A stretch of DNA of 64,000 nucleotides from a virus: positions 50,928 through 114,927 of IMG/VR virus record IMGVR_UViG_3300008259_000003. One strand, given 5' to 3'. The position numbers were made by a program, and so were the translations under genes. The notes under the pieces were generated by a model. It searched no databases. It saw only the letters and a program-made list of their open reading frames with translations, and was not told the origin of the DNA. Below, in pieces: positions 15,487 to 36,739 of this stretch. Positions within the stretch are counted from its first letter, which is position 1; every line of letters starts with the position of its first letter.

Positions 15487-16611
15487 TTATTCTTCTTCAT
15501 CTTTTCGATAACTTTCCAAGAGTTCCTCCCCTGAAAGTGTACCGTATTTATTTACAATTTTTTCGGTGTCTATTTCAACATTCATCATGTGATGAACATT
15601 ATTTAATTCTTCGGCTAATGATAAACTATCACTAATCACTTTAACGATTTTATATGGGTCCGCGTGTGATGCTGGTCTCCTGTCTTCAAGATAACCCTTC
15701 CATGTCTCACCAACGGATTTTGGTACACGGATAGATGCACCTCTGTCTGAGACACCCCAACTAAATTTATCAATAGATTGTGTCTCAAAATGACCTGTTA
15801 ATCTCAAATGGTTATCAGAACCATAAGAGTCAATATGTTCTTGTGTTCTTGATTCAAAAGACCTAAAAATTGCATTGAAGTATTGTTCACCACCCTCTTC
15901 TCTCATTTTTTGATTTGAGAAATTTGTATGTAAACCTGAACCGTTCCATTCTCCGTGGGTCATCGGTTTGGGATGTAACTCAATAGAACGACCATATTTC
16001 TCAGCAATTTTATGTAAAAAATATCTACTCATCCATAAATCATCAGAAGCGGCAATTTTACCTGTTGCAAAAATTTGGTATTCCCATTGACCTAATGCAA
16101 CCTCTGAATTGGTTCCCTCCACATTGATGTCATATTTTAAACACATGTTCAAATGTTCATCAGAAATATTTCGACCAACAATATGTCCACCTACACCACA
16201 ATAATAAATTCCTTGACCGTCAATGATACCATTTCTTTCAAATCCAAGAATTGGATTATTATGTGAAGAACGAATAAAATATTCCTGTTCAAATCCAACC
16301 CAAAAATTTACATCTTCCTCACCTACTTTTGCTCTATGATTTGATGGATGAATTTCATTATTACCATCTAAAACCTCACATAATACATATACTGTATCAA
16401 GTGAACTATTTGTATGATATAATTTTACTGGCTTAAGATAACAATCTGAAAAGTTACCTTCCGCTTGTTTAGTTGAGCTTCCGTCAAACCCCCAATTGGG
16501 GATGTGTTTCAATTCAAATGGTGCCGGTAGGTCCACAATTTTTATTTTACTTCTGAGATTTGGCTCAGGGGAATACCCATCAAGCCATACGTATTCTACT
16601 TTTGTTTTCAT
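15487..16611 (-). CDS. Glutamine synthetase, type II (GSII)
   Basis: A complete 374-residue enzyme of the GSII (eukaryote-like) family, which joins ammonia and glutamate to glutamine using ATP. Motifs in order: WGFDGSST (40-47), FEQEYF (107-112, metal-binding Glu residues), HIVGRNISDEH (143-153), EGTNSEVALGQWEYQIF (165-181), NGSGLHTNFS (223-232), DRGASIRVP (289-297) and LEDRRPASHADPY (308-320). All catalytic residues I know for the family appear intact. It has the short, single-domain size of GSII and not the 440-470 residues of GSI. In a phage it would keep nitrogen assimilation going or feed purine and pyrimidine synthesis. It is next to ThyA and thioesterase genes in the same transcription direction. 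Confidence 0.96.
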   Translation of the reverse strand: MKTKVEYVWLDGYSPEPNLRSKIKIVDLPAPFELKHIPNWGFDGSSTKQAEGNFSDCYLKPVKLYHTNSSLDTVYVLCEVLDGNNEIHPSNHRAKVGEEDVNFWVGFEQEYFIRSSHNNPILGFERNGIIDGQGIYYCGVGGHIVGRNISDEHLNMCLKYDINVEGTNSEVALGQWEYQIFATGKIAASDDLWMSRYFLHKIAEKYGRSIELHPKPMTHGEWNGSGLHTNFSNQKMREEGGEQYFNAIFRSFESRTQEHIDSYGSDNHLRLTGHFETQSIDKFSWGVSDRGASIRVPKSVGETWKGYLEDRRPASHADPYKIVKVISDSLSLAEELNNVHHMMNVEIDTEKIVNKYGTLSGEELLESYRKDEEE

Positions 16612-17595: not shown

Positions 17596-18450
17596 TTATT
17601 CTTCAAACATTACCAGTTGTTTCTTTTGGTTATCATAATCAATCAATCTCTGTTGAGATATCTTTGTGTAAGATTCTGATAACTCAAAACCAATATAATT
17701 TCTATTCAGCTTCTTAGCTGACAAAGCGGTGGTTCCACTTCCTGAAAAACAATCAACAATCAGGTCATTTTGATAGGAAAGTATTTTTATTGCTTTCATT
17801 GGGATGTCCATGGAGAATGTGGCTTTAGTTAAAGATTTTGTGTCGTTGAAGTATTTCCATTGACCAAAGACTAATTCCATGAATTCGTTTTTGTCTTTAT
17901 CTGAATAAACCCTTTTGTTTTTAAAATTACCTTCCTCGTTTTCGACCTCAATCTGATTATAAGACCATTGAGATATACCTTTTTCTTTCTTTTTGTAATC
18001 TTTCTTATATGCAAGAATTACACATTCTTTTGGATTGTATATGTATGGTGATGATGGTGACATCCAAGAACCCCAAGCGGTTGTTTTAGAACGGTGTGGA
18101 GAATCCTCCTCTAAGTCCACAACACCAAAGAATCCAAAACCAATCTCTTTCATCATCTGCCAATATTCAGATACTAAGAAAATTCTCCCACCTCTTTCTC
18201 TAACGTTTATTTCATATGGTATATTCAAGGCAATTCTACCATCATCTTTTAATGTACGGTAAACTTCGGATAACCATTTCTTACACCACTCAAAATACTC
18301 ATCCATCGGAGCATCGTCTTTGTGCACATCATAACTAATACCGACATTGTACGGTGGACTCGTAACAAAGAGGTCTACAGTACCGTCATTTAACTCCTTA
18401 AACAGTTCTAAGCAGTCACCCTGATAAATTTTATTCATTTCCATTGACAA
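17596..18450 (-). CDS. Site-specific DNA methyltransferase (N6-adenine or N4-cytosine), beta class
   Basis: TSPPYN (residues 30-35) is catalytic motif IV and FSGSGTT (235-241) is the AdoMet-binding motif I. Motif IV comes first, so it is a beta-class enzyme of the PF01555 family. The 284-residue length suits a single-subunit methylase. No matching restriction endonuclease gene is next to it, so it probably marks phage DNA against host restriction or regulates transcription. The start may be Met5 (MNKIYQGDC), which fits the family better. Confidence 0.92.
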   Translation of the reverse strand: MSMEMNKIYQGDCLELFKELNDGTVDLFVTSPPYNVGISYDVHKDDAPMDEYFEWCKKWLSEVYRTLKDDGRIALNIPYEINVRERGGRIFLVSEYWQMMKEIGFGFFGVVDLEEDSPHRSKTTAWGSWMSPSSPYIYNPKECVILAYKKDYKKKEKGISQWSYNQIEVENEEGNFKNKRVYSDKDKNEFMELVFGQWKYFNDTKSLTKATFSMDIPMKAIKILSYQNDLIVDCFSGSGTTALSAKKLNRNYIGFELSESYTKISQQRLIDYDNQKKQLVMFEE

Positions 18451-18717: not shown

Positions 18718-18721
18718 ATTG

Positions 18722-18756
18722 TATCGGACAGTCTAATAAATTGTCCGATATTTTTT
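18722..18756 (+). terminator. Rho-independent terminator, plus strand
   Basis: A 9-bp perfect stem (18722-18730 with 18742-18750) is followed by a run of six T. It ends the transcript of the small Cys-rich gene and isolates the following regulator and glycan operon. Confidence 0.9.
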
Positions 18757-18793: not shown

Positions 18794-18994
18794 ATGCCTA
18801 AACAACAAACAAAACTAACCAGCGTTAACATCATAGATGATGTTTATAAAAGATTTAAGATAAAAAGTGTAGATGGTTCAATCAATCTACAAAAATTAGT
18901 AAACCGAGCTCTTGACCTATATAACACTAGAGAAGATTTTAGAAAACAAATTGATAATCACAACGGTCTTGCACCAAACGGTTCCAAATTTTAA
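18794..18994 (+). CDS. Ribbon-helix-helix-like DNA-binding protein
   Basis: From the ATG at 18794 the protein has 66 residues (MPKQQTKLTS...). The sequence KLTSVNIIDDVYKRFK followed by INLQKLVNRALDLY has the strand-helix-helix pattern of Arc/MetJ-type repressors. It ends 49 nt before the glycan operon on the same strand and could regulate it or itself. The first in-frame ATG (18755) would add a hydrophobic 13-residue stretch and lies inside the terminator T-run, so I reject it. Confidence 0.7.
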   Translation: MPKQQTKLTSVNIIDDVYKRFKIKSVDGSINLQKLVNRALDLYNTREDFRKQIDNHNGLAPNGSKF

Positions 18995-19043: not shown

Positions 19044-20501
19044 ATGATTACAATAGGTTACAGTACAAGAGAGTCCAACCCAAAATTTCAAGAATATTTA
19101 AAAAAAACTTGTGGACACCCCAAAGTTCAAGTTATTGAAAAAGTAAACAATGGTGAAAAAAGTCTTTCACAAACTTACAATGAAATTATTCAAGAGTCGA
19201 TTCATGATATTGTCGTACTTTGTCATGATGACATTTACTTTAATACGACTTCGTGGGGTAGAAAATTAGTCAAACATTTTGAAGAATCTGACTACGGGAT
19301 TCTCGGTGTTGCCGGTACAACCAATATTCATGAGAGTGGTAGGTGGTGGACAGATAATACCAAAATGGTTGGTATTGTTAATCATGAAAATGAGGGTAAA
19401 AAATGGGAATCGAGATATGCAAATGGAATCCCAAATTCAATTCACGAAGTTTGTTTAGTGGATGGTTTATTCATTGGAATCCACAAAAACAGAATAAAAC
19501 ACACTTTTGATGAGTCAGTACCGGGTTTTCATTTTTATGATATGGTATTCTGTACTAGCAATCACTTAAGTGAGGTAAACATCGGTGTTATATACAACAT
19601 AAGAATCACTCACAAATCAATCGGAATGACCAATGATTCTTGGGAAAAGAATAGGGAATTTTACATTGAAAAATTTAAAGAGAACCTACCAATTAATATA
19701 ACACCAAAAATTGATTATGACATAACCAAACCAAAACAGTTTAAAGATAAATTTAATTTAATAGTTCAAACATCAAACGATAATGAAAATTTAATTCAGT
19801 TTTTTGAAAACATAAAAAAATTACCAGTGTTTGATAGTTTACAGATTTCACTCATCTCGACGGATACCAATATAGACAATATTAGAGAATTTGAATCTGA
19901 AAATATTAAAATTTACGAGGGTTTTTTTGATACATTAAATAAAAACTTATCAGTACTGAAATGGGATGAATCGTTTATGGAATCAAAAACAGATTTGTTA
20001 TTTTTCAGTAATGATACTGTTACCGTATTGAACGACGTTTTCTCAAGTATGTATTCAATATTTAAGAGTGAAAAAAATACTTTTGGGTGCGTCTTTCCTA
20101 CAGTATTAGAAAACGACCGAACAATTTTTTCAAATGGATTGGATATAGTTCAAAACAACGAACAGTTCAATTTAATTTTTAAAAACAAATCATCTTTTTT
20201 CAATATTTTACACGGACACTTTCCAAACAATTTTGGTAGTATTAGTGACTTTTTTGCCACTACATCTACAAATTTAAAAATGATTGATTGGTTTGATATT
20301 AATTTAGAAACATCAATTTATAACTTAGATTTTGCGTTGAAAACTTTACTTAAAAAACGTAAAACATTCATTGACACAAACAGTGTGGTAATGATTGATA
20401 TGGCATCAAAATTTGAAAAGGTTGATGTTGAATTAAAACAAGTCTTAGGTCAGTACATAAACTCACCTGAAATTAGAAAAAATATCAAACAATTAAGATG
20501 A
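19044..20501 (+). CDS. Glycosyltransferase, GT-A fold, first gene of the glycan operon
   Basis: This 485-residue protein has a GT-A-like N-terminal domain: ITIGYSTRES, SLSQTYNEII near residue 43, then VVLCHDDIYF (about 57-66) with the HDD metal site of family 2-like enzymes. The block RWWTDNTKM and VCLVDGLFIG, then HFYDMVFC, is typical of glycosyltransferases acting on surface glycans. A second, weaker domain (about 230-480) repeats the pattern (LIVQTSND, LLFFSNDTV), so it may be a two-domain enzyme. Donor and acceptor are unknown. The next gene starts inside its stop codon. Confidence 0.85.
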   Translation: MITIGYSTRESNPKFQEYLKKTCGHPKVQVIEKVNNGEKSLSQTYNEIIQESIHDIVVLCHDDIYFNTTSWGRKLVKHFEESDYGILGVAGTTNIHESGRWWTDNTKMVGIVNHENEGKKWESRYANGIPNSIHEVCLVDGLFIGIHKNRIKHTFDESVPGFHFYDMVFCTSNHLSEVNIGVIYNIRITHKSIGMTNDSWEKNREFYIEKFKENLPINITPKIDYDITKPKQFKDKFNLIVQTSNDNENLIQFFENIKKLPVFDSLQISLISTDTNIDNIREFESENIKIYEGFFDTLNKNLSVLKWDESFMESKTDLLFFSNDTVTVLNDVFSSMYSIFKSEKNTFGCVFPTVLENDRTIFSNGLDIVQNNEQFNLIFKNKSSFFNILHGHFPNNFGSISDFFATTSTNLKMIDWFDINLETSIYNLDFALKTLLKKRKTFIDTNSVVMIDMASKFEKVDVELKQVLGQYINSPEIRKNIKQLR

Positions 20502-21277
20502 TAAAAATTGTATCGGGATTTACAGAAAAAGGTGGTTCTACCACTTTTTTTATAAACTTAACAAATTTCTTAAATGAAAATGGTATTGATTGCACATTTT
20601 ACGGTAATCAGAATTACCATTTAGACAAATGTAAATCAGGGAACATTGAAAAAGATTTAAAGTATGAATCTGATGATATTGTAATTACCCATTTTTTACA
20701 ACTACAGGAAAGACCACCTGTTAAAAAAGTTATTTTGTCTTGTCATGAAAAATGGTGGTTCCCTGTTGGTAAAATTAAACAGTATTGGGACCTGTGCGTG
20801 TTTTTACATGAAGAGCATCGAAAATATCACTCGGATTACAGGGGTGATTATGTAATAATACCAAACATCAAAGAAAATTTAATTATTTCAAATAAAGAGC
20901 TGGTAAGAAATATTGCAGGAATTATTGGTACAATTGAAGACAGAAAACAGACCCATGTGTCAATACAAAGAGCATTAAAAGACAGGTGTGAAAAAATCTA
21001 TTTGTTCGGTCACATCGGTGACCAAAACTATTTTGACAAATTGGTAAAACCTTTAATGAATCCAAGAGTAATTCATTACGGTCACACCACCAATAAACAA
21101 GAAATGTACGATATGATTGGTAAGGTATATCACTCATCAAAGGGTGAGGTTGCTTGTTTGGTTAAAGATGAATGTTATTTAACCGGTACAGAGTTTTATG
21201 GTAATGAAGAGACTATGAATGAAGTTTCTAAATTAAGTAACGAAGAGATATTAACACTTTGGAAAAACATATTTTAA
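20498..21277 (+). CDS. Glycosyltransferase-like protein, GT-B type
   Basis: The start FTEKGGSTTFFINLTNFL matches the N-terminal Gly-rich loop of GT-B (group 1) glycosyltransferases. The middle (YVIIPNIKEN, then IAGIIGTIEDRKQTH, KIYLFGHIGD) is the Rossmann-like donor half. At 259 residues it is shorter than normal group 1 enzymes (350-400), and I do not see the usual E-x7-E motif, so it may be reduced or act with a partner. It overlaps the upstream gene by 4 nt. Confidence 0.75.
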   Translation: MIKIVSGFTEKGGSTTFFINLTNFLNENGIDCTFYGNQNYHLDKCKSGNIEKDLKYESDDIVITHFLQLQERPPVKKVILSCHEKWWFPVGKIKQYWDLCVFLHEEHRKYHSDYRGDYVIIPNIKENLIISNKELVRNIAGIIGTIEDRKQTHVSIQRALKDRCEKIYLFGHIGDQNYFDKLVKPLMNPRVIHYGHTTNKQEMYDMIGKVYHSSKGEVACLVKDECYLTGTEFYGNEETMNEVSKLSNEEILTLWKNIF

Positions 21278-21278
21278 A

Positions 21279-22001
21279 ATGAAGATACACGCACATATAC
21301 TGTCATGGAATGAAGAAAAAATATTACCATTCACATTGGATTACTATAGTACAATCTGTGAAAAAATATTCATATACGATAATATGTCAACGGACTCCTC
21401 TGATGAGATTTATAAGAGGTACCCAAAAGTTGAGGTTATTAAATGGGATAGTGGTAATGAAATAAATGAAATTAATTACGTAAACATTAAATCCGAAGAG
21501 TATAAAAAAAGAAGTAGAGGTCAGGGTGTTGATTGGGTTATAGTTTGTGACTGTGATGAGTTTATATACCATGAAAATCTTATGGATAAACTTCAAGAGT
21601 ACAAAGAAATGGGTATAACCGTCCCAAGAATAGACGGTCACGACATGGTTAGTACTGAATTTCCAATATACGACGGTGAATTCATTACAACAAAAATTAA
21701 AACAGGTTCACAAACGTATGAACCAATGTGTAAAAATATAATTTTTCATCCTGATTTAGATATAAAATACGGCATTGGTGGTCACAGTTTTAATTCTGTT
21801 GATGGTAAATTTTCGGATGAGCGGGAAATAAAACTTCTTCACTATAAATTCTTGGGTAAAGACTACGTGAAGAACATTTACATTTCAAGAGCAAAGAGAT
21901 TGTCATCGTTCAATAAACAACATAAATTCGGTGAACATTATTTTAATTTACCATTCAATTACATGGACAGCATGTTAAAAGAAAATTATCAAGTTATATG
22001 A
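21279..22001 (+). CDS. Glycosyltransferase family 2, PF13704 type
   Basis: The start HILSWNEEKILPFTLDYY followed by IFIYDNMSTDSSDEI is the donor-binding start of Glyco_tranf_2_4 (PF13704). VIVCDCDEFIY (about residues 86-96) holds the metal-binding D-x-D. It has 240 residues and no membrane segment. Substrate unknown. The gene starts 1 nt after the previous stop and the next overlaps it by 4 nt. Confidence 0.88.
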   Translation: MKIHAHILSWNEEKILPFTLDYYSTICEKIFIYDNMSTDSSDEIYKRYPKVEVIKWDSGNEINEINYVNIKSEEYKKRSRGQGVDWVIVCDCDEFIYHENLMDKLQEYKEMGITVPRIDGHDMVSTEFPIYDGEFITTKIKTGSQTYEPMCKNIIFHPDLDIKYGIGGHSFNSVDGKFSDEREIKLLHYKFLGKDYVKNIYISRAKRLSSFNKQHKFGEHYFNLPFNYMDSMLKENYQVI

Positions 22002-22819
22002 GGAAAATACTTATATCGGATTTTACCATTAAAGAAGTACCTCACGGTGGTTCTGAATGGGTGAATCAAGTTTTAATTGATAGATTTAATCTTGAGTTTG
22101 AATATTCAAACCAAGTCAAGTCATTTGATTACAACGCCCTGTATATTATATCAAATATTTCTTTGATGAACCCAAACTTGGTTAATCAAATACAAAATTT
22201 GAACTACGTCATTATTGAAAACGATTATAAAATATGTGCAAGTAGACACCCATGGAGATATACCGACAACATAATTCCGATTGAGGAAAGAACCAACTAT
22301 TCTCTTTACCGGAATGCAAAAGCGGTATTTGTTCAAACAACCGACCACATGAACGTTTATCTTAAAAACGATGTTGTTGCTAATTTTATAAATCTGAATA
22401 GTTCGATATGGTCAAATGAGGACTTAGAATTATTGAGGAATTTAAATAAATCCAACAATGTTAAAAACGACAAATATTCTGTTTACTATACAAATAATTG
22501 GATAAAGAACACCCAAGGTAGTCTGAAGTATTGTTCTGAAAATAAATTACCGGTCCATATTCTTAAAGAATCTAAAGACAGAGTTGAATTTTTAAGTAAT
22601 ATGGCCAAATGTAAAGGTATTGTGTTTTTCCCGATAGCAAGAGAAACTTTTTGTAGACTGGTTGTTGAGGCAAAATGTTTAGGTTTGGAAGTAATAACGA
22701 CACAAAATTATGGTGCAAGTTTAGAAGAATGGTTTAATAGGTTATCAGGTGATGAATTAATTGATTTCTTAGAAACTAACACTTTAAAAAATTTAGAAAT
22801 CATTTCAACTTATATATGA
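21998..22819 (+). CDS. Glycosyltransferase-like protein, GT-B type
   Basis: The N-terminus (ISDFTIKEVPHGGSEWVNQVL) has the Gly-Gly loop of GT-B enzymes. The C-terminal stretch FFPIARETFCRLVVEAKCLG near residues 208-228 has the E-x7-E pattern (E-T-F-C-R-L-V-V-E) used to bind the nucleotide sugar. In 273 residues the acceptor half is small. It overlaps both neighbours by 4 nt. Confidence 0.8.
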   Translation: MRKILISDFTIKEVPHGGSEWVNQVLIDRFNLEFEYSNQVKSFDYNALYIISNISLMNPNLVNQIQNLNYVIIENDYKICASRHPWRYTDNIIPIEERTNYSLYRNAKAVFVQTTDHMNVYLKNDVVANFINLNSSIWSNEDLELLRNLNKSNNVKNDKYSVYYTNNWIKNTQGSLKYCSENKLPVHILKESKDRVEFLSNMAKCKGIVFFPIARETFCRLVVEAKCLGLEVITTQNYGASLEEWFNRLSGDELIDFLETNTLKNLEIISTYI

Positions 22820-23808
22820 TATTATTTTGTTACGGCACAAGACCTGAGTATATTAAAATAAAAAAATTAATAGAAATGTGTGGGGAAAGTATTCCCCATA
22901 AAATTTTATATGTTACCCAACACAAAGATATTGTATTGGGTGATTTTGATTATAAATTATCCATTGATGATACGTGTGAAAATAGATTGGATAGTATTAT
23001 GTCATCCGTATTTTTAAATTTTAAAAAAGAATTTTTGGAAGGGGTTACACATATACTTATCCAAGGGGACACCGCAACCGCTCTTTCATTATCCCTAATA
23101 GGATTACACCATAAAAAAGAAGTGATTCATTTAGAAGCGGGATTACGGACATATGACTACAATCACCCTTACCCCGAAGAAATGTATCGGCAGTTAATTA
23201 GTAGAATTTCAAACTATAATCTTTGCCCAACAGAAAGTAACAAGATGAACTTAGAAAATGAAAAAGTTCAGGGTAAAAATTTTGTAGTTGGCAATACCGT
23301 ATTAGATAATCTTAATAAAGAAAATATTACATACGAAAATAAAGTCTTAATCACTTTACATAGAAGAGAGAATCATGAGATGATGTCGGAGTGGTTTGAT
23401 GTTATCAATCGATTAGCAAAGAATAATCCTGAATTAAAATTCATTCTTCCAATACACCCAAACCCAAACGTCATAAAACACAAACATATATTGACACATG
23501 TTGATGTTATTGAACCATTAACCCATGATAAATTTATTGAGGAATTCAAATCCTGTAAATTACTAATTTCAGATAGTGGGGGTGTTCAAGAAGAGGCGTC
23601 GTTCCTAAATAAGAAAGTTATTGTATGTAGAGAAAAAACTGAGAGACCTGAGTCCTTGGGTAAAACGTCTTTTATATGTAAAAAACCCATTGACTTAGAA
23701 GGTATTTTTTACGATATTATTAACGATTTCCAAACAGAATATGATTGTCCTTTTGGTGATGGTAATTCTTGTGAAAGAATCATTGAAATATTTAGAAAAA
23801 TTGTATGA
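22816..23808 (+). CDS. wecB: UDP-N-acetylglucosamine 2-epimerase (non-hydrolysing)
   Basis: This 330-residue enzyme interconverts UDP-GlcNAc and UDP-ManNAc. Family motifs: GTRPEYIK (7-14), then IQGDTATAL, HLEAGLRT, PYPEEMYRQLISRI, TLHRRENHE and SDSGGVQEEASFLNKKV with REKTERPE. Key catalytic Asp, Glu and His residues appear intact. It is slightly shorter than bacterial WecB (about 375). It provides a sugar donor (ManNAc, possibly leading to ManNAcA) for the operon, supporting a role in glycan synthesis and not in simple glucosylation of DNA. Confidence 0.93.
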   Translation: MILFCYGTRPEYIKIKKLIEMCGESIPHKILYVTQHKDIVLGDFDYKLSIDDTCENRLDSIMSSVFLNFKKEFLEGVTHILIQGDTATALSLSLIGLHHKKEVIHLEAGLRTYDYNHPYPEEMYRQLISRISNYNLCPTESNKMNLENEKVQGKNFVVGNTVLDNLNKENITYENKVLITLHRRENHEMMSEWFDVINRLAKNNPELKFILPIHPNPNVIKHKHILTHVDVIEPLTHDKFIEEFKSCKLLISDSGGVQEEASFLNKKVIVCREKTERPESLGKTSFICKKPIDLEGIFYDIINDFQTEYDCPFGDGNSCERIIEIFRKIV

Positions 23809-24533
23809 GTATAACGGTAATATTAAATGGGTATAAAAGACCACATGTTCTCCAAAAACAATTGGAATCAATTAGAAATCAAAGTGTCCAACCCGAATCA
23901 ATTTTATTTTGGCAAAATTCTGGTTCTCAATTTGATGAGGGACTAACCAAAGATTTAATTCACGCATCTTGTAATAGTAATTTAGGTGTGTGGGCAAGAT
24001 TTGCATTTGCTTTAAATGCCAACACAGAATATATTTGTGTTTTTGATGATGACACAATACCGGGTAAACTATGGTTAGAAAACTGTCTAAACACCATGAA
24101 AATTCAAGAAGGTTTATTAGGAACTATCGGTGTAAAATTTCACACAAAAAACTCTTATTGGCCAGCAACAAGAGTCGGTTGGGACCAACCTAACGAAGAA
24201 ATTGAAAAGGTCGACATTGTTGGTCACTCGTGGTTCTTTAAAAGAGAATGGTTATCGATATTTTGGAGAGAATTACCTGAAATCAATCAGAGTAAATTAG
24301 TTGGTGAGGATATGCACTTTTCATATACATTACAGAAATACGCAAATATCGGAACTTACGTTCCTCCCCATCCTAAAGAAAATAGAGAAATGTGGGGTAG
24401 TATACCAGAATATGCATGGGAACATGGAACTGATTCCAACGCAATTTCCGTAAATCATTCAAATATGAATTTAATGGGTGAAGTTTACCGTGGGTATGTA
24501 AATAAAGGATTTAAGACAATATTAAATGATTGA
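23805..24533 (+). CDS. Glycosyltransferase family 2-like
   Basis: The start VILNGYKRPHVLQKQLESI is a GT2-like donor site and YICVFDDDTIPG (near residues 75-86) carries the D-x-D metal motif. It continues to HSWFFKREWL and LVGEDMHFSYTLQK, the acceptor-side E-D motif of GT2 enzymes. It has 242 residues. It overlaps the next gene by 8 nt. Confidence 0.85.
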   Translation: MSITVILNGYKRPHVLQKQLESIRNQSVQPESILFWQNSGSQFDEGLTKDLIHASCNSNLGVWARFAFALNANTEYICVFDDDTIPGKLWLENCLNTMKIQEGLLGTIGVKFHTKNSYWPATRVGWDQPNEEIEKVDIVGHSWFFKREWLSIFWRELPEINQSKLVGEDMHFSYTLQKYANIGTYVPPHPKENREMWGSIPEYAWEHGTDSNAISVNHSNMNLMGEVYRGYVNKGFKTILND

Positions 24534-25245
24534 AAAGTATATTGAAGATTTTAATTCGTTTTGGGAAAAGATAGATAGTCGAACTAACTTTTCTTTTGTT
24601 AGATATGCCGATGGTGAAGTGATGTTAATGAATAATTCACCGATAGAAAAGAATACACAAGCGTATCAAAACGATAAATGGTTTTCGAGTGGGGGACAAA
24701 CCAAATTAGGTGTGGATTTAAATGAATGTATAGGGTTGAACGACCCAAATTTTTATTTTGCAATATCCTCCAAAACTGATAGTATTAGAGACTATAATTT
24801 TTTATATGATAGAATACAAAATAAATCAAACATTACATTTGCTAACCTATGGATTAACGCAAATTACAAAGAAAATATATCAAGAATAAGAAATATAAAT
24901 CGAGATGTTGTTTTAATTTGTAATGAAAATTGTGATTTAAAAAACATACCATTTAGTGTATCAGAATTTGTACCGTTCCCTAATGATTGTGTAAACTATT
25001 GGGAAGAACATAGAGATTCGTTTTTAGAAAAAATATACAATGTTTCTTCAAAATATAAAGATACTTTATTTATCGTATGTTGTGGACCAACATCTGCTGT
25101 TATCATAAAACATATGTTTACAAATAATAGTAATAACACTTATATTGATTTTGGTTCCGCATTAGATGTATTCATACATAATAAAATAACTAGACCATAC
25201 ATGTATGAAGGGTCACAATATCATAATCACATATCAAAATTTTAA
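24526..25245 (+). CDS. GT-D fold glycosyltransferase-like protein
   Basis: Residues near 22-32 read FSFVRYADGEV, the R-x-G/A-D-G-E signature of GT-D (formerly DUF1792-like) glycosyltransferases. The C-terminal LFIVCCGPTSAVI and YIDFGSALDVF also match that fold (conserved G-P and D-x-G). The family includes the third glucosyltransferase of serine-rich adhesin glycosylation in streptococci. Its presence beside Thr-rich fibre genes is suggestive. It has 239 residues. Confidence 0.78.
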   Translation: MIEKYIEDFNSFWEKIDSRTNFSFVRYADGEVMLMNNSPIEKNTQAYQNDKWFSSGGQTKLGVDLNECIGLNDPNFYFAISSKTDSIRDYNFLYDRIQNKSNITFANLWINANYKENISRIRNINRDVVLICNENCDLKNIPFSVSEFVPFPNDCVNYWEEHRDSFLEKIYNVSSKYKDTLFIVCCGPTSAVIIKHMFTNNSNNTYIDFGSALDVFIHNKITRPYMYEGSQYHNHISKF

Positions 25246-25251
25246 TTCAGT

Positions 25252-25842
25252 ATGAATAATGATTTTTGTGTCATAGTACAAGGACCTTCAGACTACGTTA
25301 AAGAATTAAAAAACGCTTGGACTGGTTATGATTTGATTTGGTCAACATGGCAAGGTGAAGAATCAAAATACGATACTAATGATGTTGTCTTATTCAACAG
25401 TATTCCACACGATAGGGGTGTACAAAATATAGCACTACAAAAAATATCAACTTTGAATGGAATAATGAAAGCCAAAGAAATAGGTTACAACAGAGTCCTT
25501 AAATGGAGAAGTGATTTACTACCATCTAATGCAAATAGATTAGTTTCCACATTTAAAAAAGAGTGTGTAAATTTTTTGACTTGGCATAATGAAGGAAAAT
25601 ATTTTGTTGATTATTTTGTGGAGGGTGAAATAGATACGGTGTTTGATATTTGGAATGTATCTACCATACACGATGAGTATTCGGAAAAAATAATCACGGA
25701 AAATATAATATCACTTAACTATAAAAATATAAACTTTATGGGTGGCGAATTAAGTAATGATAATGAAATTTTTTGGTTAAAACGAAATATTAATTTGTCC
25801 ACATATAAAGACGCACCATGTTATAGTATGGTGGTGATTTAA
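25252..25842 (+). CDS. WavE-like polysaccharide synthesis protein
   Basis: The N-terminus CVIVQGPSDY, LIWSTWQGE and NIALQKISTLNGIMKAKEIG then VLKWRSDLL match the WavE lipopolysaccharide synthesis family (PF07507), whose members are believed to be sugar transferases for LPS core. Here 196 residues cover the conserved part. The substrate is unknown. It starts 6 nt after the previous gene. Confidence 0.8.
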   Translation: MNNDFCVIVQGPSDYVKELKNAWTGYDLIWSTWQGEESKYDTNDVVLFNSIPHDRGVQNIALQKISTLNGIMKAKEIGYNRVLKWRSDLLPSNANRLVSTFKKECVNFLTWHNEGKYFVDYFVEGEIDTVFDIWNVSTIHDEYSEKIITENIISLNYKNINFMGGELSNDNEIFWLKRNINLSTYKDAPCYSMVVI

Positions 25843-25853
25843 AAATTATAAAA

Positions 25854-26588
25854 ATGATAGATAATTCAAAATTTATTGACGACGCATTTACTCAAGATGA
25901 ATTAAATAGGGGTGCCTTTACCGATTTGAATGGTAGATGTCCATTATGGACAACAAAAATGATTAATGTTATAAAAGATAAAATTGACTTTAATGATGTC
26001 AACACAATATTAGATATTGGGTCAAGAGATGGTTGCCAAAGTTTAGAGTTAAATAGATGGTTTCCACATGCTAAAATATATGCGTTTGAACCAGTAAAAG
26101 AAAACTACGAATTTACAGTTAAGAACGTTGAGAAAATTAATAACATAAAAGTTTACCAATACGCAATAAACAATTACAACGGTAAAACTAAATTTTACGA
26201 AGTTTATAATGGAAATGTGGGTGCCAGTTCTTTATTACAGACAACAAACCACTGGCGTTCATCTCAGTGGGCCCAAAAGGAAACTGAGGTTGACTGTATT
26301 GTTCTTAGTGATTGGTTAAAAGAAAATGATATTAAAAGTGTTGATTTGATTTGGATGGATGTTCAAGGTGCAGAAAATATCGTATTAGACTCTCTAAAAG
26401 AATATTTAAATGATGTAAAAATAATAACCACCGAAGTAGGGTTACAGGAATTATATCGTGGTTCTACAAGTAAATCTGAACTAGATGAAAAACTAAATAG
26501 GTTTATACCAATAGACGAGTCGCCAGAATCTTCAAACACAGAAATGGATGTGGTTTATATCAACAAAAATTTAACACCTTATGGATAA
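25854..26588 (+). CDS. FkbM-family SAM-dependent methyltransferase
   Basis: The AdoMet site reads ILDIGSRDGCQS (near residues 57-68), followed by IYAFEPVKENY and later DLIWMDVQGAE (conserved D-V-Q-G of the FkbM family) and ITTEVGL. FkbM enzymes methylate hydroxyls, commonly sugar O-methylation in phage and bacterial glycan clusters. It has 244 residues. It precedes a glycosyltransferase with an 8-nt overlap. Confidence 0.9.
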   Translation: MIDNSKFIDDAFTQDELNRGAFTDLNGRCPLWTTKMINVIKDKIDFNDVNTILDIGSRDGCQSLELNRWFPHAKIYAFEPVKENYEFTVKNVEKINNIKVYQYAINNYNGKTKFYEVYNGNVGASSLLQTTNHWRSSQWAQKETEVDCIVLSDWLKENDIKSVDLIWMDVQGAENIVLDSLKEYLNDVKIITTEVGLQELYRGSTSKSELDEKLNRFIPIDESPESSNTEMDVVYINKNLTPYG

Positions 26589-27282
26589 TAAAATTTGTTA
26601 CGTTACTTATACAAATTCAAAATGTTCAGATATTTTGGATATGTTCTTGTTAGAACAAAAAAAGTACACAAACTTACCGATGTATTTTATTACAGATGTA
26701 ATGATACCCGAGCAAATTTGTTTTTTATATGAAAATCAAGAACCTTATTATGAATCATGGTTAAAGTGTTTATCTTCAATACCATATGACTATTTTATAT
26801 ACTTACAAGAAGACTTTATTCTTTATAACAATGTCAGTCATGATAAAATTTTTAATTACCTCGATTTTTTACATGATAACCAAGAATATTCGTTCATTAG
26901 ATTGTTAAAATCGGGGTCTGTTAAAGATAAAAAAATTTATGAGACCTTATATGAAATAGAATCCGACAATAAAGATATATTTTCTATGCAACCAACTATT
27001 TGGAAAAAAGATGATTACATTAAAATCATGAAAGGTACCAAAAATAATATGTGGTTAGAGAATGAAACATATAGAAATTTTATGATAGAAAACAACATCA
27101 AAGGTTTATATCATTACGATGGTGAAAACAAAAGGGGGTTGAATCATTTTGATAGTTCTGTTTATCCATATATAGCAACGGCTTTAGTTAGAGGTAAATG
27201 GAATTTATCTGAATACCCTAATGAACTCTCTCCATTAATAAATGAATATGAAATAAACGTAAATGTTCGGGGGATACATTAA
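26581..27282 (+). CDS. Glycosyltransferase-like protein, GT-A type
   Basis: A GT-A-type start (CYVTYTNSKCSDIL) and YFIYLQEDFILY near residues 65-76, with E-D in place of D-x-D at the metal site. Later IKGLYHYDGENKRG and the C-terminal WNLSEYPNELSPLI resemble small unassigned transferases found in marine phage clusters. It has 233 residues. Its context makes a sugar-transfer role likely; the motif is imperfect. Confidence 0.7.
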   Translation: MDNKICYVTYTNSKCSDILDMFLLEQKKYTNLPMYFITDVMIPEQICFLYENQEPYYESWLKCLSSIPYDYFIYLQEDFILYNNVSHDKIFNYLDFLHDNQEYSFIRLLKSGSVKDKKIYETLYEIESDNKDIFSMQPTIWKKDDYIKIMKGTKNNMWLENETYRNFMIENNIKGLYHYDGENKRGLNHFDSSVYPYIATALVRGKWNLSEYPNELSPLINEYEINVNVRGIH

Positions 27283-27284
27283 TA

Positions 27285-27959
27285 ATGAAAATTGTTCTAT
27301 CTTTTTACACCAACAATAAATTTAGTAACACCGTTCAAAAATTAATCGGATATTATAATTCACGTGGTTTCAATGATATCCGAGGATTTAAATCTGAAGA
27401 TGTTAAGAAAGGTATTTTTTATGAAAACCATAAAGAAATATTAGATTGTGAAACGGGTGATGGATTTTGGTTGTGGAAACCAAAAATTATTTTAGATATT
27501 TTGAATGAATTAGAAGATGGGGATGCATTAATTTATACCGATGCCGGTGATTTAGTTGATGTTGATTATAATACGATTGCAAATTATTTGAAAGATAATG
27601 ATTATTATTTTACAAATTGGAATGGAAATCGTTGGCCTCAAAAAATATGTACAAAAAGAGACTGTTTTATCTTGATGGATTGTGATGAAGAAAAGTTTCA
27701 TGAAACACCACAGATGGAAGCAGGATTTATCATCATTAAAAAAACCAAACAAATGATGGAATTTGTTCACGATTATTTTAAGTATTGTAGTATTAAACAG
27801 ATAGTTGACAATGAACCAAATCAAATTGGTGAGAATTTTCCAAATTGGCAATTCCATAGAAATGACCAAAGTATATTAACTAACTTGGTTGTGAAACATA
27901 ATTTAAAATTTGATTATTGTCTCGATTATAGAATAAAATACAACGTATATATACCATGA
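27285..27959 (+). CDS. Glycosyltransferase-like protein (WLWKP type)
   Basis: The block GDGFWLWKPKIILDIL is followed by GDALIYTDAGDLVDVD (residues about 85-100), which holds the D-A-G-D metal site of capsule-type GT-A enzymes in this WKP family. The C-terminal MEAGFIIIKKTKQM and FHRNDQSILTNLV match the acceptor side. It has 224 residues. It overlaps the following gene by 4 nt. Confidence 0.78.
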   Translation: MKIVLSFYTNNKFSNTVQKLIGYYNSRGFNDIRGFKSEDVKKGIFYENHKEILDCETGDGFWLWKPKIILDILNELEDGDALIYTDAGDLVDVDYNTIANYLKDNDYYFTNWNGNRWPQKICTKRDCFILMDCDEEKFHETPQMEAGFIIIKKTKQMMEFVHDYFKYCSIKQIVDNEPNQIGENFPNWQFHRNDQSILTNLVVKHNLKFDYCLDYRIKYNVYIP

Positions 27960-28717
27960 AATTTATTGCATTAAATTATAATTATGACTTAAATAAAATG
28001 TCCCAAATCGGTCGGAAATGGGCGTTTGATGTCTACAAAAATAAAGAGTTTATATCTGATTATTCATCAGCATCTTATGCTTCATTTATTGATAAGAATA
28101 GAAAAAGTATTTTACATCTTTATACTGATGATGTTGAGGGTATGAAAGAAAAAATGAACAAGTATAACATTGACCAAGACAGAATTATTTATATTGATTA
28201 CACGGAACAACTTACCAAATACAATGAAAGTCTTAATTATAGTTTTACAGTTTTAAATGATTTTATTAATTATGCAAAATCAGAAACTGAGTACACTGTA
28301 AAAATCGATAATGATTTATTTTTTCATTCGGAATTACCACAAATTGATGATAATTCTATTATGGTTTGGAAGTATGAAAGAATCGTTAGGAATGGTGACC
28401 CGAGATGGGGTGAAATAAAAATATGTAAACAGGTTACAAATGATTTAGATTTTAAAATTTATAATTTAGGTATTTTTGGGTTGCCCGCGGATTACAATAT
28501 TCACCAAGCAAAAAAAATTATGGAAGATATGATATCGGTAGACATTTCAGATGTGACTGATACAGACTCGAAGATTTATCATTGTTGTGAGCAAACGGCA
28601 AATAATTGGATTTTTCACAAAGAAAATTATAACGTGATTGAAACGTATAATTATGTTGACCACCTGTTTGATAGAAAAGGTGATTGTATAGAATTATCAA
28701 AATATCTTTTAAAATGA
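27956..28717 (+). CDS. Glycosyltransferase-like protein, GT-A type
   Basis: In this 253-residue protein ETEYTVKIDNDLFFHSE carries an IDNDLFF site at a position expected for a GT-A D-x-D, and IFGLPADYNIHQAKKIM lies further on. The sequence pattern fits the operon but I cannot name its family. The next gene's start lies inside its stop (ATGA overlap). Confidence 0.65.
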   Translation: MKFIALNYNYDLNKMSQIGRKWAFDVYKNKEFISDYSSASYASFIDKNRKSILHLYTDDVEGMKEKMNKYNIDQDRIIYIDYTEQLTKYNESLNYSFTVLNDFINYAKSETEYTVKIDNDLFFHSELPQIDDNSIMVWKYERIVRNGDPRWGEIKICKQVTNDLDFKIYNLGIFGLPADYNIHQAKKIMEDMISVDISDVTDTDSKIYHCCEQTANNWIFHKENYNVIETYNYVDHLFDRKGDCIELSKYLLK

Positions 28718-29481
28718 AAACATCAGTAGTATTGACAATTCACAACAAGGAATTCTTAATGAACCAAGTGGTGAGTAACTTGGTAAATAATTTATCAGAA
28801 CTGAATGACCAGATTGTAATAGTTTTTGATGGTTGTACAGATAATAGTGAAGGTATTGTTCGTGACAATTTAAAGAGAGTTAGTAATAAAAAAATTGATT
28901 ACCTGTATGCCGACAATGTTTTTGAAACCAAAGCAAATAATATTGGTCTAAAGTCTGTTATAAATGATTATGTGGTCTTAATCCAAGATGATATGGTTGT
29001 CACAGAAAAAGATTTTGATAAGAGGATGTTGGAACCGTTCATAAAATATAGTGATGTGTTCGCTGTAACATCTTTTGTTGCTCACAATAACATCTATAAT
29101 GAACAAACAAAACAAATAAATTACATCGATATTGCACATAAAGATAACTCATCAAGAGATATTTTTTATGCTAGAGAATATGGTAACAGAGGTCCACTAA
29201 TGTACAACTATAATGACGTGGTCAAATTAAATTTTTTAGACGAATATTTTTCACCCCAAAATTATGATGATATGGATATGTCCATGAGAGCATTCAAAGA
29301 ACTCGGAAAAGTGTCAGGTTTATATACGATAGATTATATTTCCGAACCTGGATGGGGGACCACTAGACAAAAAAATCAATCATTACATAATAATTTAGTT
29401 TACGTAAACGCAGCAAAAATACTTGAAAAACACAGGGATTTATTGTATAATAAAGACAAATATAAAGAGGATAGAGAATGA
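28714..29481 (+). CDS. Glycosyltransferase family 2
   Basis: From the ATG at 28714 (MKTSVVLTIHNKEFL) the protein has 255 residues; an ATG at 28684 would extend into the upstream gene by over 30 nt and is rejected. VVLTIHNKE, VIVFDGCTDNSEGI and YVVLIQDDMVV are the three classic GT2 (PF00535) blocks, with D-D-M metal site. The acceptor-side PQNYDDMDMSMRAF has the E/D-D motif. It overlaps the following gene by 4 nt. Confidence 0.9.
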   Translation: MKTSVVLTIHNKEFLMNQVVSNLVNNLSELNDQIVIVFDGCTDNSEGIVRDNLKRVSNKKIDYLYADNVFETKANNIGLKSVINDYVVLIQDDMVVTEKDFDKRMLEPFIKYSDVFAVTSFVAHNNIYNEQTKQINYIDIAHKDNSSRDIFYAREYGNRGPLMYNYNDVVKLNFLDEYFSPQNYDDMDMSMRAFKELGKVSGLYTIDYISEPGWGTTRQKNQSLHNNLVYVNAAKILEKHRDLLYNKDKYKEDRE

Positions 29482-30095
29482 ATAATATAGAGCTAAAGAC
29501 ATTTATGATTAATCATAATGTTAATATCCATGGTGTGATTCACGTTGGTGCACATTTTGGTCAAGAAGATGAAGTTTATAAGGAATTGGGTATTTCAAAC
29601 AGAATATACTTTGAACCTCTATCGTCTAATTTTGAGACCTTAAAAGAAAAAATAGATGATGACGCAATTTTAGTTAAACTGGCGTTAGGTAATGAAAAGA
29701 GAAAAGTTTCTATGTTTGTAGAATCCTTTAATAAAGGTATGTCATCCTCAATATTAGAACCGAAATTACATTCTGTTCAATTTCCTCATATCGTTTTTGA
29801 TTCTGTAGAAGAAGTTGAAATGGATAGATTGGATGATTTAAATTACGATTTTTCAAAATACAACATGATGAATATCGATGTTCAAGGTTTTGAATTAGAG
29901 GTTCTCAAAGGTTCCGTGAATACATTAATCAACATTGACTACGTTATTGTAGAAATAAACAGAGCCGAATTATATAAAGGTTGTCCACACTTTGATGAAA
30001 TAAACAATTGGATGACACATCATGGGTTTACCTGTGTTGAACAATTTTGGTGGGGTAATAATTTTGGTGAGGGATTTTTTAAAAAAATAAAATGA
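29478..30095 (+). CDS. FkbM-family methyltransferase
   Basis: VIHVGAHFGQEDEVYKELG near residue 21 is the AdoMet-binding Gly-rich loop in the HVGAHxGQE form common in phage FkbM proteins. IYFEPLSSNFETLK and MMNIDVQGFELEVLKG (D-V-Q-G-x-E) follow. It has 205 residues. It is a second sugar O-methyltransferase in the operon, differing from the first in length and motif type. Confidence 0.9.
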   Translation: MNNIELKTFMINHNVNIHGVIHVGAHFGQEDEVYKELGISNRIYFEPLSSNFETLKEKIDDDAILVKLALGNEKRKVSMFVESFNKGMSSSILEPKLHSVQFPHIVFDSVEEVEMDRLDDLNYDFSKYNMMNIDVQGFELEVLKGSVNTLINIDYVIVEINRAELYKGCPHFDEINNWMTHHGFTCVEQFWWGNNFGEGFFKKIK

Positions 30096-31153
30096 AACGA
30101 GTATTAGTATTGGGTGGTGGCGGATTTATTGGTGGTCACCTAGCAAAAAGATTAAAAAATGAAGGAAACTACGTAAGAGTAGTTGATATAAAAAGACACG
30201 AATATTTTGATGAGAAAGACTTTTGTGACGAATTCTTAATATATGACCTTACGGACCCAAAAAACGTATCATCAGTAATGAGATTAGAAGAATTAAATGG
30301 TACGATATTACCGTTTAATTATTACAAACAACCATATTCAACTGAGGTCCCATTTGATGAGGTTTATCAATTAGCTGCCGATATGGGTGGTGCTGGTTAC
30401 ATCTTCACTGGTGAAAATGACGCGAATGTTATGCACAATTCTGCAATGATAAATTTAAATGTTGTAAATGAATCAGTGAAGACAAAAGTTAAGAAGATTT
30501 TTTATTCATCATCGGCATGTATGTATCCTGAACACAATCAATTAGACCCTAACAACCCAAATTGTGAAGAATCATCAGCATATCCCGCGAATCCTGATTC
30601 AGAATATGGTTGGGAAAAACTTTTTTCGGAAAGGTTGTACTTGGCTTTTCACAGAAATCACGGTTTGGATGTTCGAATTGCTAGATTTCATAACATATTT
30701 GGTCCATATGGTACGTGGAAAGGTGGTAAAGAAAAAGCACCAGCAGCTATGTGTAGAAAAGTTGCCGAAATGTTAGACGGTGGAGAAATTGAAGTTTGGG
30801 GTGATGGTCAACAGACTCGTTCATTCTTATATGTGGATGAATGTGTTGAAGCGGTTTTAAGACTAATGAGACAAGACTCTTTTTTGGGTCCTGTAAACAT
30901 TGGTTCTGAAGAGAAAGTAACAATTAATGATTTGGCTCAAATGGCTATAGATATTTCAGGTAAAGAAATTTATATCAGAAATATTGGTGGGGAAGAATTT
31001 AAACAGAAGTATGGATATAAATGTCCTGTTGGTGTGAGGGGAAGAAATTCAGACAATAAATTATACCACGAAAAAATAGGTTGGGTTGTTAGTGAACCTC
31101 TGTTCTATGGAATGGAAAAAACCTATAAATGGATTAATAGTTTAGTTAAATAA
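30092..31153 (+). CDS. NAD-dependent sugar epimerase, GDP-mannose 3,5-epimerase-like
   Basis: LVLGGGGFIGGHLAKRL (residues 5-21) is the Rossmann NAD loop of extended SDR enzymes. EVYQLAADMGGAGYI, SSSACMYPEHNQ and YGWEKLFSERLY (active-site YxxxK variant) match GDP-mannose 3,5-epimerase, as do ARFHNIFGPYGTWKGGKEKAP and VWGDGQQTRSFLYVDEC. The product in the known enzymes is GDP-L-galactose or gulose. At 353 residues it is full length. It closes the operon, 4-nt overlap upstream and a terminator downstream. Confidence 0.9.
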   Translation: MKRVLVLGGGGFIGGHLAKRLKNEGNYVRVVDIKRHEYFDEKDFCDEFLIYDLTDPKNVSSVMRLEELNGTILPFNYYKQPYSTEVPFDEVYQLAADMGGAGYIFTGENDANVMHNSAMINLNVVNESVKTKVKKIFYSSSACMYPEHNQLDPNNPNCEESSAYPANPDSEYGWEKLFSERLYLAFHRNHGLDVRIARFHNIFGPYGTWKGGKEKAPAAMCRKVAEMLDGGEIEVWGDGQQTRSFLYVDECVEAVLRLMRQDSFLGPVNIGSEEKVTINDLAQMAIDISGKEIYIRNIGGEEFKQKYGYKCPVGVRGRNSDNKLYHEKIGWVVSEPLFYGMEKTYKWINSLVK

Positions 31154-31186
31154 AAAAGGGGGTTATTGACCCCCTTCTTTTTTTTC
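31154..31186. terminator. Bidirectional rho-independent terminator
   Basis: A 7-bp stem with five G-C pairs (31156-31162 with 31170-31176) has A6 on its left and a T-rich run on its right, so it works in both directions. It separates the plus-strand glycan operon from the convergent glutaredoxin-like gene. Confidence 0.92.
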
Positions 31187-33137: not shown

Positions 33138-34028
33138 TTAATAATTCATAATCAGTAATTCAATACCTTCGTTTTGTGTTCCGTCTTTTTTAGCGGCAGC
33201 CGCCTTTTTGAAAGTTTCTTTAGCCCATTTGTAACCAGTTGGTTGAAACATCAAAAGTTGTCCATTTTTACCAATACCAACACCATTTTCGGGGAACCAA
33301 TCATGAAGTTGTTTAAACTCATAATAAGATAAACTAAATTTACCTTGTATACCCTTTAATGTGTTTGCCAACCTTTCATGGTCATTACTATCAAAATCAT
33401 GATTTGAATAATAATTTTCTGTTTTCCAATAAGGGGGGTCCATGTAAAAATATGTTTTTGGCGAATCATACTTTTCAACAACTTTTTGGAAATCCATGTT
33501 TTCGACAAACGTGATTCTATCTAAATGTGCTCTATATTCAGGATGTTTGAGTTTGTCCATAAAGATTAACACCTTACATCTGTACTTACCCTTGTAATCA
33601 GTATAACTAGAAGTTTCGGGTTTGGAACCTGAGAAAACTTGAGTTAATACGTAAACGTATTTTGCGGCAACATCAAAATTGGGCTCATCCCCAATGACTA
33701 ATTCTTCGTTGAATACTTCTTTTTGGTATGTACGGAACATTTGTTCATATTCAGGTGGGGTGTTTTCCACACCTAATTGTTGACATGGGTATTTCGCGAG
33801 TTCATCCCATAACCTATCGTAATGTTTAGCACATTTAAAAAGGTTTGCGTTCAATCGATTAAAGTCATTGTAAACGACTGTTTTGAGATTGGGGTATTTC
33901 TTTAGGTCCATATTAAAAAAGACCCAAAACATACCCGAAAACCCCTCCACGTAGGTTTCAATATCATTAGGTATGAACGGAACAATCCACTTACCTATTC
34001 TAGCTTTTCCTCCAATGTAAGATATCAT
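33138..34028 (-). CDS. DNA adenine methylase, D12 class (Dam-like)
   Basis: This 296-residue enzyme has SYIGGKARIG (residues 3-12, motif X/I region), YVEGFSGMFWVFFN (motif I, 26-39) and DPPYW (197-201, catalytic motif IV), as in PF02086 adenine methylases. These transfer a methyl group to adenine N6 in a short site. It differs in class from the beta-class methylase at 17.6 kb, so two modification specificities are likely. A restriction partner is absent. Confidence 0.92.
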   Translation of the reverse strand: MISYIGGKARIGKWIVPFIPNDIETYVEGFSGMFWVFFNMDLKKYPNLKTVVYNDFNRLNANLFKCAKHYDRLWDELAKYPCQQLGVENTPPEYEQMFRTYQKEVFNEELVIGDEPNFDVAAKYVYVLTQVFSGSKPETSSYTDYKGKYRCKVLIFMDKLKHPEYRAHLDRITFVENMDFQKVVEKYDSPKTYFYMDPPYWKTENYYSNHDFDSNDHERLANTLKGIQGKFSLSYYEFKQLHDWFPENGVGIGKNGQLLMFQPTGYKWAKETFKKAAAAKKDGTQNEGIELLIMNY

Positions 34029-36274: not shown

Positions 36275-36739
36275 CTACTTTTTCAAGTTTTGTTCGAATA
36301 ATTTATAAATTTCTGTGAGAATGTCCAACTCGGACCTTGACTTTTGATATCTAAAATCAAATAACTTGTAAAAGTATTCAGATATTCTATTTTCTTTTTC
36401 TTCCAATTTAACAAAATAGTACGCCTCATAGAAAAAATTCCACATATATTCATAGTGGGTTCCTTTCTCCTTGAAGAATATTTTTTCTTTATCAAAATTG
36501 GTGATTATTTTATTCCAACACCAATTAAAATGGTTTCGTTGGTCTATTTCGTCATAAAGTACATCAGAACCTAAAAAGGTTTCGTCTACTAAATCATATA
36601 AAGAAGATAGGAAATCATAAAATAATATTATTTTATCCCTATTAATGTTGTAGGTTCTATACCAAATGTCTATTTGATGTTTGTATTTTTCAGAAATATC
36701 TGACTCAATATACTCTTCTCTATTTTCCATAATCCTCAT
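36275..36739 (-). CDS. Unknown phage protein
   Basis: This 154-residue protein is rich in aromatic and acidic residues with several helices (IILFYDFLSSLYDLVDE, YMWNFFYEAYYFVKLEE). No domain is recognised. An alternative start is 9 nt in (Met4). It is the first gene downstream of a 41-nt spacer after the putative head protein. Confidence 0.65.
   Translation of the reverse strand: MRIMENREEYIESDISEKYKHQIDIWYRTYNINRDKIILFYDFLSSLYDLVDETFLGSDVLYDEIDQRNHFNWCWNKIITNFDKEKIFFKEKGTHYEYMWNFFYEAYYFVKLEEKENRISEYFYKLFDFRYQKSRSELDILTEIYKLFEQNLKK

Follow-up and report, generated by a model that had tools for sequence, protein, structure and literature searches.

The stretch of 64,000 nucleotides analyzed here (positions 50,928 to 114,927 of the IMG/VR virus record IMGVR_UViG_3300008259_000003; hereafter the window) carries 15 co-oriented open reading frames (ORFs 1 to 15) on the plus strand between positions 19044 and 31153, which encode a set of sugar enzymes in the genome of an uncultured giant phage of the T4 superfamily. 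Two families of activated-sugar enzymes, at least six glycosyltransferases (GT; ORFs 1, 2, 3, 6, 7 and 13) and two FkbM methyltransferases were recognized from sequences and predicted folds. The genes are read here as a phage-borne glycan cassette, a single operon of cytoplasmic enzymes that would make or remodel a sugar chain during infection, so that an altered host surface blocks rival phages; the chances of this interpretation are judged to be about even. An earlier sequence-only reading had described a glycan operon in a T4-like phage genome exceeding the needs of DNA glucosylation, which is borne out by the enzyme set and by the T4 capsid gene gp23 on the same contigs.

Enzymes encoded by the cassette

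The curated Pfam cut-offs were passed by eight of the 15 proteins (ORFs 1, 3, 5, 6, 9, 13, 14 and 15). Together with ORFs 2 and 7, 10 of the 15 are supported as sugar enzymes by fold or profile. All cassette coordinates refer to the plus strand of the window.

Four proteins are GT2-type transferases, namely ORF1 (19044-20501; Glyco_tranf_2_5, PF13712, 2.9e-24), ORF3 (21279-22001; Glyco_tranf_2_4, PF13704, 3.2e-15), ORF6 (23805-24533; PF00535, 1e-6, 29.2 bits at a cut-off of 23.3) and ORF13 (28714-29481; PF00535, 1.9e-12), the last of which also weakly matches a GtrB-like PHROG (1.3e-5). ORF9 (25854-26588; PF05050, 1e-19) and ORF14 (29478-30095; PF05050, 1.3e-16) are the FkbM methyltransferases. 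ORF5 (22816-23808) resembles the non-hydrolysing UDP-N-acetylglucosamine 2-epimerase WecB. Its matches to PF02350 (4e-60; score 204, cut-off 30.6) and to the WecB structure 6vlb (2.6e-68) support a place in this family, while the score of 209.9 bits for the NCBIfam equivalog TIGR00236 is 0.25 short of the cut-off of 210.15. ORF15 (30092-31153) belongs to the NAD-dependent epimerases (PF01370, 1.1e-40) and matches the plant GDP-mannose 3,5-epimerase 2c59 (1.3e-87). The alignment to 2c59 pairs SSAC-YPE, YGWEK and GTWKGGKEK, and ORF15 keeps the YxxxK motif and the Cys- and Lys-bearing segments of this enzyme (SSAC-YPE, YGWEK, GTWKGGKEKAPAA). Clear products can be predicted for both enzymes, UDP-N-acetylmannosamine (UDP-ManNAc) for ORF5 and GDP-L-galactose or GDP-L-gulose for ORF15. 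The assignment of WecB, the two FkbM methyltransferases and the epimerase in the sequence-only reading is supported, all four being above the Pfam cut-offs.

The remaining assignments are less uniform. Two GT-B-like proteins had been proposed. For ORF2 (20498-21277) the predicted model (predicted local distance difference test, pLDDT, 71; predicted template modeling score 0.66), which rests on three sequences, groups with GT4 enzymes of the GT-B fold (Foldseek 2.1e-7; VIA Z 17.2, 3.8 Å over 254 residues), whereas ORF4 (21998-22819) is a possible GT-B transferase with a weak match to Glycos_transf_1 (PF00534, 17.8 bits, cut-off 26.4). ORF7 (24526-25245) agrees with the proposed GT-D-like protein, as it matches the GalT1 profile 4phr (8.3e-4); its PF22882 score of 21.9 bits is under the cut-off of 27. 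From the six or seven GT-A-like proteins named before, the four GT2-type enzymes are supported, and ORFs 10, 11 and 12 found no support as GT-A in the searches described here.

No family match over the cut-off was obtained in Pfam or NCBIfam for ORF8 (25252-25842), ORF10 (26581-27282), ORF11 (27285-27959) and ORF12 (27956-28717), and PDB profile searches with ORFs 8, 10 and 11 yielded no or unrelated weak matches only. The description of ORF8 as WavE-like consequently found no support. The NCBIfam score of ORF10 (13.8 bits, cut-off 70) was taken as noise, no result came from comparing the profiles of ORFs 10, 11 and 12 with one another or with that of ORF3, and the predicted model of ORF12 (pLDDT 49) was too poor for use. 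For ORF11 an indirect tie to a transferase exists, because its homologue is fused to that of ORF13 in one gene of phage P-TIM68 (gp185; NC_028955, 162993-164594).

Position of the cassette in a T4-superfamily phage genome

The window derives from a record of 114,927 bases, which is a fragment. In 12 other IMG/VR contigs of up to 288 kb, a sequence of 20,990 bases spanning the cassette and both flanks was found with 100% identity. The diverged contig L017 (86.6% nucleotide identity in the main aligned piece) begins within ORF10 and keeps ORFs 11 to 15 and the right flank in order; it is informative for the right side only. The capsid gene gp23 was identified in four out of seven records, namely the diverged relative and three contigs of the identical group, on one of which the gene is partial where the contig ends. 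It lies outside the record of the window and is present on contigs of the identical group; on the 288-kb contig gp23 occupies about 31-33 kb, whereas the cassette is found only at about 151-172 kb. The cassette is thus part of the genome of a T4-superfamily phage.

An assembly chimera, in which a bacterial locus is joined to a phage, had been named in the sequence-only reading as a possible flaw. The strand switches on both sides of the cassette and its content resembling bacterial loci would fit such an origin. Against it stand the identity of both junctions in the 12 other contigs, the right junction kept in L017 and a GC content of 28-34%, which is like that of the surroundings. The chimera was therefore rejected and is given practically no credence.

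Elsewhere on the 288-kb contig, a nucleotidyltransferase (PF00483) and four more GT2 matches were detected. About 116 bases of the window (36668-36783) are absent from one otherwise identical contig (L014).

Selection on the cassette genes

The ratio of non-synonymous to synonymous substitution rates (dN/dS) between the window and L017, measured for ORFs 11 to 15 only, was 0.076, 0.077, 0.044, 0.057 and 0.035, respectively, with synonymous change almost saturated in ORFs 11 and 12 (dS 1.3-1.4). Five flanking genes gave values between 0.030 and 0.069. Functionless filler DNA that serves headful packaging was once considered for cyanophage clusters, as told in passages of PMC3037559, and the differences of the cassette between phages would agree with it. 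However, the low dN/dS of the five comparable genes indicates strong purifying selection, and reading frames are intact in three other phages. Filler is hence unlikely at least for ORFs 11 to 15, on whose dN/dS alone it was rejected, and as an explanation of the cassette it retains hardly any weight.

Absence of recognized export genes

None of the 15 proteins contains a transmembrane (TM) segment at the hydropathy threshold used (highest value 1.51, threshold 1.6). Across 92 related loci, from which near-identical ones had been removed with a manually compiled list and in which gene runs extend past the cassettes, a candidate TM segment was found in 45 of 1,219 ORFs, with at most three per protein. 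The same measure applied to E. coli gave nine segments for each of two Wzx proteins, six for Wzy and five for WcaJ. The cyanophage clusters of P-SSM2 (15 genes), S-SSM7 (14) and P-TIM68 (19) never showed more than one candidate segment per protein.

Eight records, which represent six phages (G000, G001 and G002 being one population), were searched for export families. The flippase Wzx (PF01943), the initiating sugar-phosphate transferase (PF02397) and the GtrA flippase (PF04138) were found in none of the eight, compared to 13, 9 and 7, respectively, of 14 bacterial and archaeal control genomes. A complete O-antigen locus was rejected since the flippase and initiating transferase families were not found in the eight records, and a gtrABC system since GtrA was not found in them. 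Judged from this predicted gene content, the enzymes have to act inside the cytoplasm and would rely either on carriers and export of the host or on virion proteins as acceptors.

Prediction of the host

Shine-Dalgarno (SD)-like motifs precede 3 of 62 genes in the window (3.2 in shuffled sequences). Among reference phages, the Flavobacterium phage immuto behaves alike (2 of 50; 3.3 shuffled), whereas the Microcystis phage Mel-JY01 (22 of 40; 7.5) and T4 (30 of 38; 7.7) show clear signals. In 23 related viral loci, for which gene starts were guessed, 0-10% of the genes carry an SD-like motif, with a highest z of 2.6 (L140, 2 of 22). Among named phages, the gp23 relatives ranked best come from Rhodothermus phage RM378, Flavobacterium phage immuto and Microcystis phage Mel-JY01, with 34-41% identity over 56-70% of the protein. 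No family match to psbA or psbD was obtained in seven records, by which a phage carrying these genes was rejected. The missing SD signals and the nearest capsids suggest a Bacteroidota bacterium as the probable host.

Related cassettes in other phages

Relatives were collected as viral loci from scans with ORFs 5, 15, 12 and 2; the scans with ORFs 15 and 2 contributed 80 loci each, and the frequencies given here lean to those genes. At least 189 viral loci were obtained, merging into at least 124 distinct groups. Among the matches listed for 123 other groups, at least two of the 15 families are shared by 86 groups, at least three by 50, at least five by 13, at least nine by four and at least 12 by three. 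The best of these matches are three distinct phages, two holding 13 of the 15 families and one holding 14, and gene order in them is mostly that of the window. WecB and, where present, ORFs 8 and 9 follow ORF15 in these three relatives, and ORF15 thus does not close every cassette.

The opening genes (ORFs 1 to 4) are seen again in many related phages, as is ORF15. Homologues of ORF1 are found in 67 of the 123 groups among the matches listed, ORF1 co-occurring with ORF2 in 39 and with ORF15 likewise in 39. Between these recurring ends the genes differ across the 17 loci drawn, which fits a cassette product diversified by gene exchange. In locus L129, a gene that by eye reads like a GDP-mannose 4,6-dehydratase lies within the cassette, and no ORF15 homologue was found there. 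Another cassette type, judged by eye, consists of two GT-B-like proteins of 425-497 aa, further genes and then an ORF15 homologue. In all 11 loci of this type that were drawn (L032, L040, L042, L043, L046, L048, L051, L054, L060, L088 and L092), it is directly preceded by a homologue of the small ribbon-helix-helix (RHH)-like gene found upstream of ORF1, which is thus possibly a cassette-linked regulator.

Several loci hold further genes. A position near hli03 or phoH would be expected of an LPS cluster of the P-SSM2 type. In L053, phoH adjoins the cassette; it was not seen among the annotated flanks of the window, where part of the flanking genes was searched. Cytidylyltransferase-like and PfkB kinase genes are located in the same locus after the GDP-mannose epimerase and before phoH (L053, 11484-12627) and may supply heptose. 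A RuBisCO large-chain superfamily protein is encoded inside the cassette of L071 (12628-13806, plus strand; IMGVR_UViG_3300042332_001525). It matches PF00016 (7.1e-34) and PDB 8dht (7.7e-38), reaches 188 bits for NCBIfam rubisco_III (cut-off 497), keeps a GGVNFIKEDE segment and is probably RuBisCO-like. The 735-kb uncultured phage record LR756501 has homologues of ORFs 3, 9, 11, 13 and 14 and a weak ORF15 homologue in one region (~303,900-334,700). On the bacterial contig JANQFG010000048.1 (L197), which belongs to a metagenome-assembled genome and is of higher GC content, homologues of ORFs 5, 6, 10 and 12 share a stretch of 5.1 kb with further transferase-like genes. The scan of genome contigs with ORF12 gave one bacterial relative (40%), situated on this contig, which is possibly a bacterial counterpart.

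Operon structure and neighboring genes

The 15 genes are located exactly as given in the sequence-only reading. Its description of mostly 1-8 nt overlaps holds for 10 of the 14 junctions, where adjacent genes share 4 or 8 nt; the other four are gaps of 1-11 nt. ORF13 was here taken from ATG 28714 (4-nt overlap with ORF12); its longest frame starts at TTG 28684. The operon is closed by a strong intrinsic terminator (31156-31176, plus strand) detected in the terminator scan, in agreement with the earlier proposal. The RHH-like gene proposed to precede the operon is present (18794-18994, plus strand; ORF listed from TTG 18755) and encodes a possible regulator; its family match is weak (PF23807, 17.1 bits, below the cut-off of 27). 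In front of it, a terminator-like hairpin (18721-18751, plus strand) separates the operon from the upstream gene. In the region, 17 terminator-like sites were counted compared to 5.7 in shuffled sequences. The T4 late-promoter motif TATAAATA gave 12 matches (11.06 expected), and the motif TAnnTTTG occurs in 86 copies in the window, yet upstream of 5 of 62 genes only.

The larger flanking genes on both sides are encoded on the minus strand. They include one DNA methyltransferase gene per side (17596-18450 and 33138-34028; N4/N6 type and D12 type), a glutamine-synthetase-like protein of 374 aa (15487-16611; PF00120, 3.6e-17; PF03951, 4.1e-9) and a thymidylate synthase of 441 aa (12224-13549), whose match is split into two stretches, with additional sequence separating and following them.

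Possible functions of the cassette

If the cassette alters the host surface, WecB would supply UDP-ManNAc and ORF15 an epimer of GDP-mannose. The transferases may extend a host glycan on the inner membrane face (lipopolysaccharide (LPS) core or a lipid-linked chain), which the FkbM enzymes would methylate and the transporters of the host would carry out to the surface. The changed surface would then keep competing phages from adsorbing. Some points weigh against this interpretation. We infer its substrates, acceptor, export and benefit, and likewise the product and the host. Four proteins (ORFs 8, 10, 11 and 12) are without an assigned family, and promoter-like matches in the region scan were at chance level (85 compared to 86.8 in shuffles). 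No exporter was recognized among Wzx, initiating transferase and GtrA, in a search that covered neither Wzy nor ABC exporter families and used possibly fragmentary records. SD-like motifs in the cyanophage S-SSM7 are only weakly above the shuffled level (11 of 47; 8.0), so that the SD counts of the window would also be compatible with a cyanobacterial host.

The missing exporters fit glycosylation of the virion equally well. In this main rival, a methylated glycan would be built in the cytoplasm on capsid, tail or fibre proteins and would hide the particle or tune adsorption. It agrees with the lack of TM segments in the 15 proteins, of flippase, initiating transferase and GtrA in the eight records, and of proteins with more than one candidate TM segment in the P-SSM2, S-SSM7 and P-TIM68 clusters. 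However, the combination of WecB, a nucleoside-diphosphate (NDP)-sugar epimerase and FkbM is typical of surface-polysaccharide loci, and the cassette is far from gp23 on the 288-kb contig. Virion glycosylation is accordingly considered a serious though rather unlikely explanation. Instead of a surface chain, the product could be a small glycan that is soluble or secreted, or a metabolite carrying sugars, such as a toxin or signal. Cytoplasmic enzymes alone would be in keeping with it, and a metabolite role was proposed for a second cyanophage cluster in a section of the review PMC7824862. This is improbable here, as no biosynthetic backbone enzyme was recognized among the 15 proteins in Pfam. 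Phage transferases can also act on DNA, and two DNA methyltransferase genes are nearby. Glucosylation or hypermodification of the phage DNA is nevertheless very improbable: the sugar enzymes far exceed the need, and the sole window homologue of dCMP hydroxymethylase, a search for which covered the window and not the rest of the genome, keeps FNIASY, which we take to mark the thymidylate synthase type.

Beyond the host-surface function preferred for this cassette, a large aquatic group of the T4 superfamily with few or no SD signals, probably infecting Bacteroidota, may carry exchangeable glycan cassettes, in the examined cases without a recognized export gene, as a general phage system for cytoplasmic glycan building. 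Such cassettes would be built from a recurring ORF1 and ORF2 opening, a recurring GDP-mannose epimerase and a shuffled set between them, with an RHH leader gene in another subtype. This generalization is tentative and judged somewhat less probable than not. If true, the cassettes are either an antigen-switching set acting on lipid-linked chains of the host or a means of glycosylating virions. As the LPS clusters of cyanophages share this plan without export genes, what they make would then need a new look. The function of those clusters has long been left open between a surface change against rivals and filler (passages of PMC3037559 and PMC2984593). Comparable cassettes under strong purifying selection in other phages argue against filler, and the lack of export genes that they have in common leaves fewer possible acceptors. 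Two enzymes with clear predicted products make the question testable.

Comparison with known systems

Large LPS clusters were described in P-SSM2, S-SSM7 and S-SM2 with their function left open, according to a part of PMC3037559. For the 15-gene cluster of P-SSM2, a role in pre-empting other phages is suggested in a section of the review PMC7824862, and blocking of rival phages, as also considered in the sequence-only reading, is already in print together with the pseudolysogeny idea in a passage of PMC2984593. An ordered set of 15 genes is not unusual, contrary to what had been assumed before, since the gene runs comprise 15 genes in P-SSM2 (PSSM2_257-271), about 14 in S-SSM7 and about 19-20 in P-TIM68. 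Like the cassette, the clusters of P-SSM2, S-SSM7, S-SM2 and P-TIM68 string together many transferases and nucleotide-sugar epimerases on one strand of a T4-like phage genome. ORFs 9, 11, 13, 14 and 15 match the P-SSM2, S-SSM7 or P-TIM68 clusters, whereas the other ten do not at E 1e-3. The identity is 41% for ORF14 to a P-SSM2 cluster gene, 57% for ORF15 to S-SSM7 and about 36-39% for ORFs 11 and 13 to parts of P-TIM68 gp185.

In a tblastn search of 50,697 phage records with 10 of the 15 proteins (ORFs 4, 7, 8, 9 and 10 left out), ORF15 matched 213 records, ORF5 19, ORF14 18, ORF11 six, ORF13 five and ORF3 two, and ORFs 1, 2, 6 and 12 matched none. The latter four, the rare ORF3 and a WecB that matches no cyanomyovirus among the matches listed set the cassette apart from the cyanophage clusters, as do the lack of psbA and psbD in seven records and the probable non-cyanobacterial host.

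Pelagimyophages, which are T4-like and infect aquatic bacteria, likewise carry glycosyltransferases; these are located in a hypervariable region and considered to alter the host surface (part of PMC7029224). By the description in that part of the article, they differ in their placement among tail-fibre genes and in the small size of their clusters, and freshwater members are without LPS genes. Bacterial O-antigen and capsule loci share NDP-sugar enzymes, many transferases and a variable middle with the cassette. They differ by a flippase and an initiating transferase, neither of which was found in the eight records searched, and Wzx has nine TM segments compared to at most three per protein in the phage runs. 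The serotype conversion genes gtrABC of temperate phages likewise alter host surface glycans, and ORF13 has a weak GtrB-like match. That system consists of three genes, compared to 15 in the cassette, and GtrA is absent from the eight records. Literature searches found no title or abstract on this cassette, most subscription papers being outside their scope. The kind of gene cluster is already known from the cyanophage LPS clusters; what this cassette adds is a gene set that is new for the most part, its modular build, a probable host group of its own and the export-less constraint.

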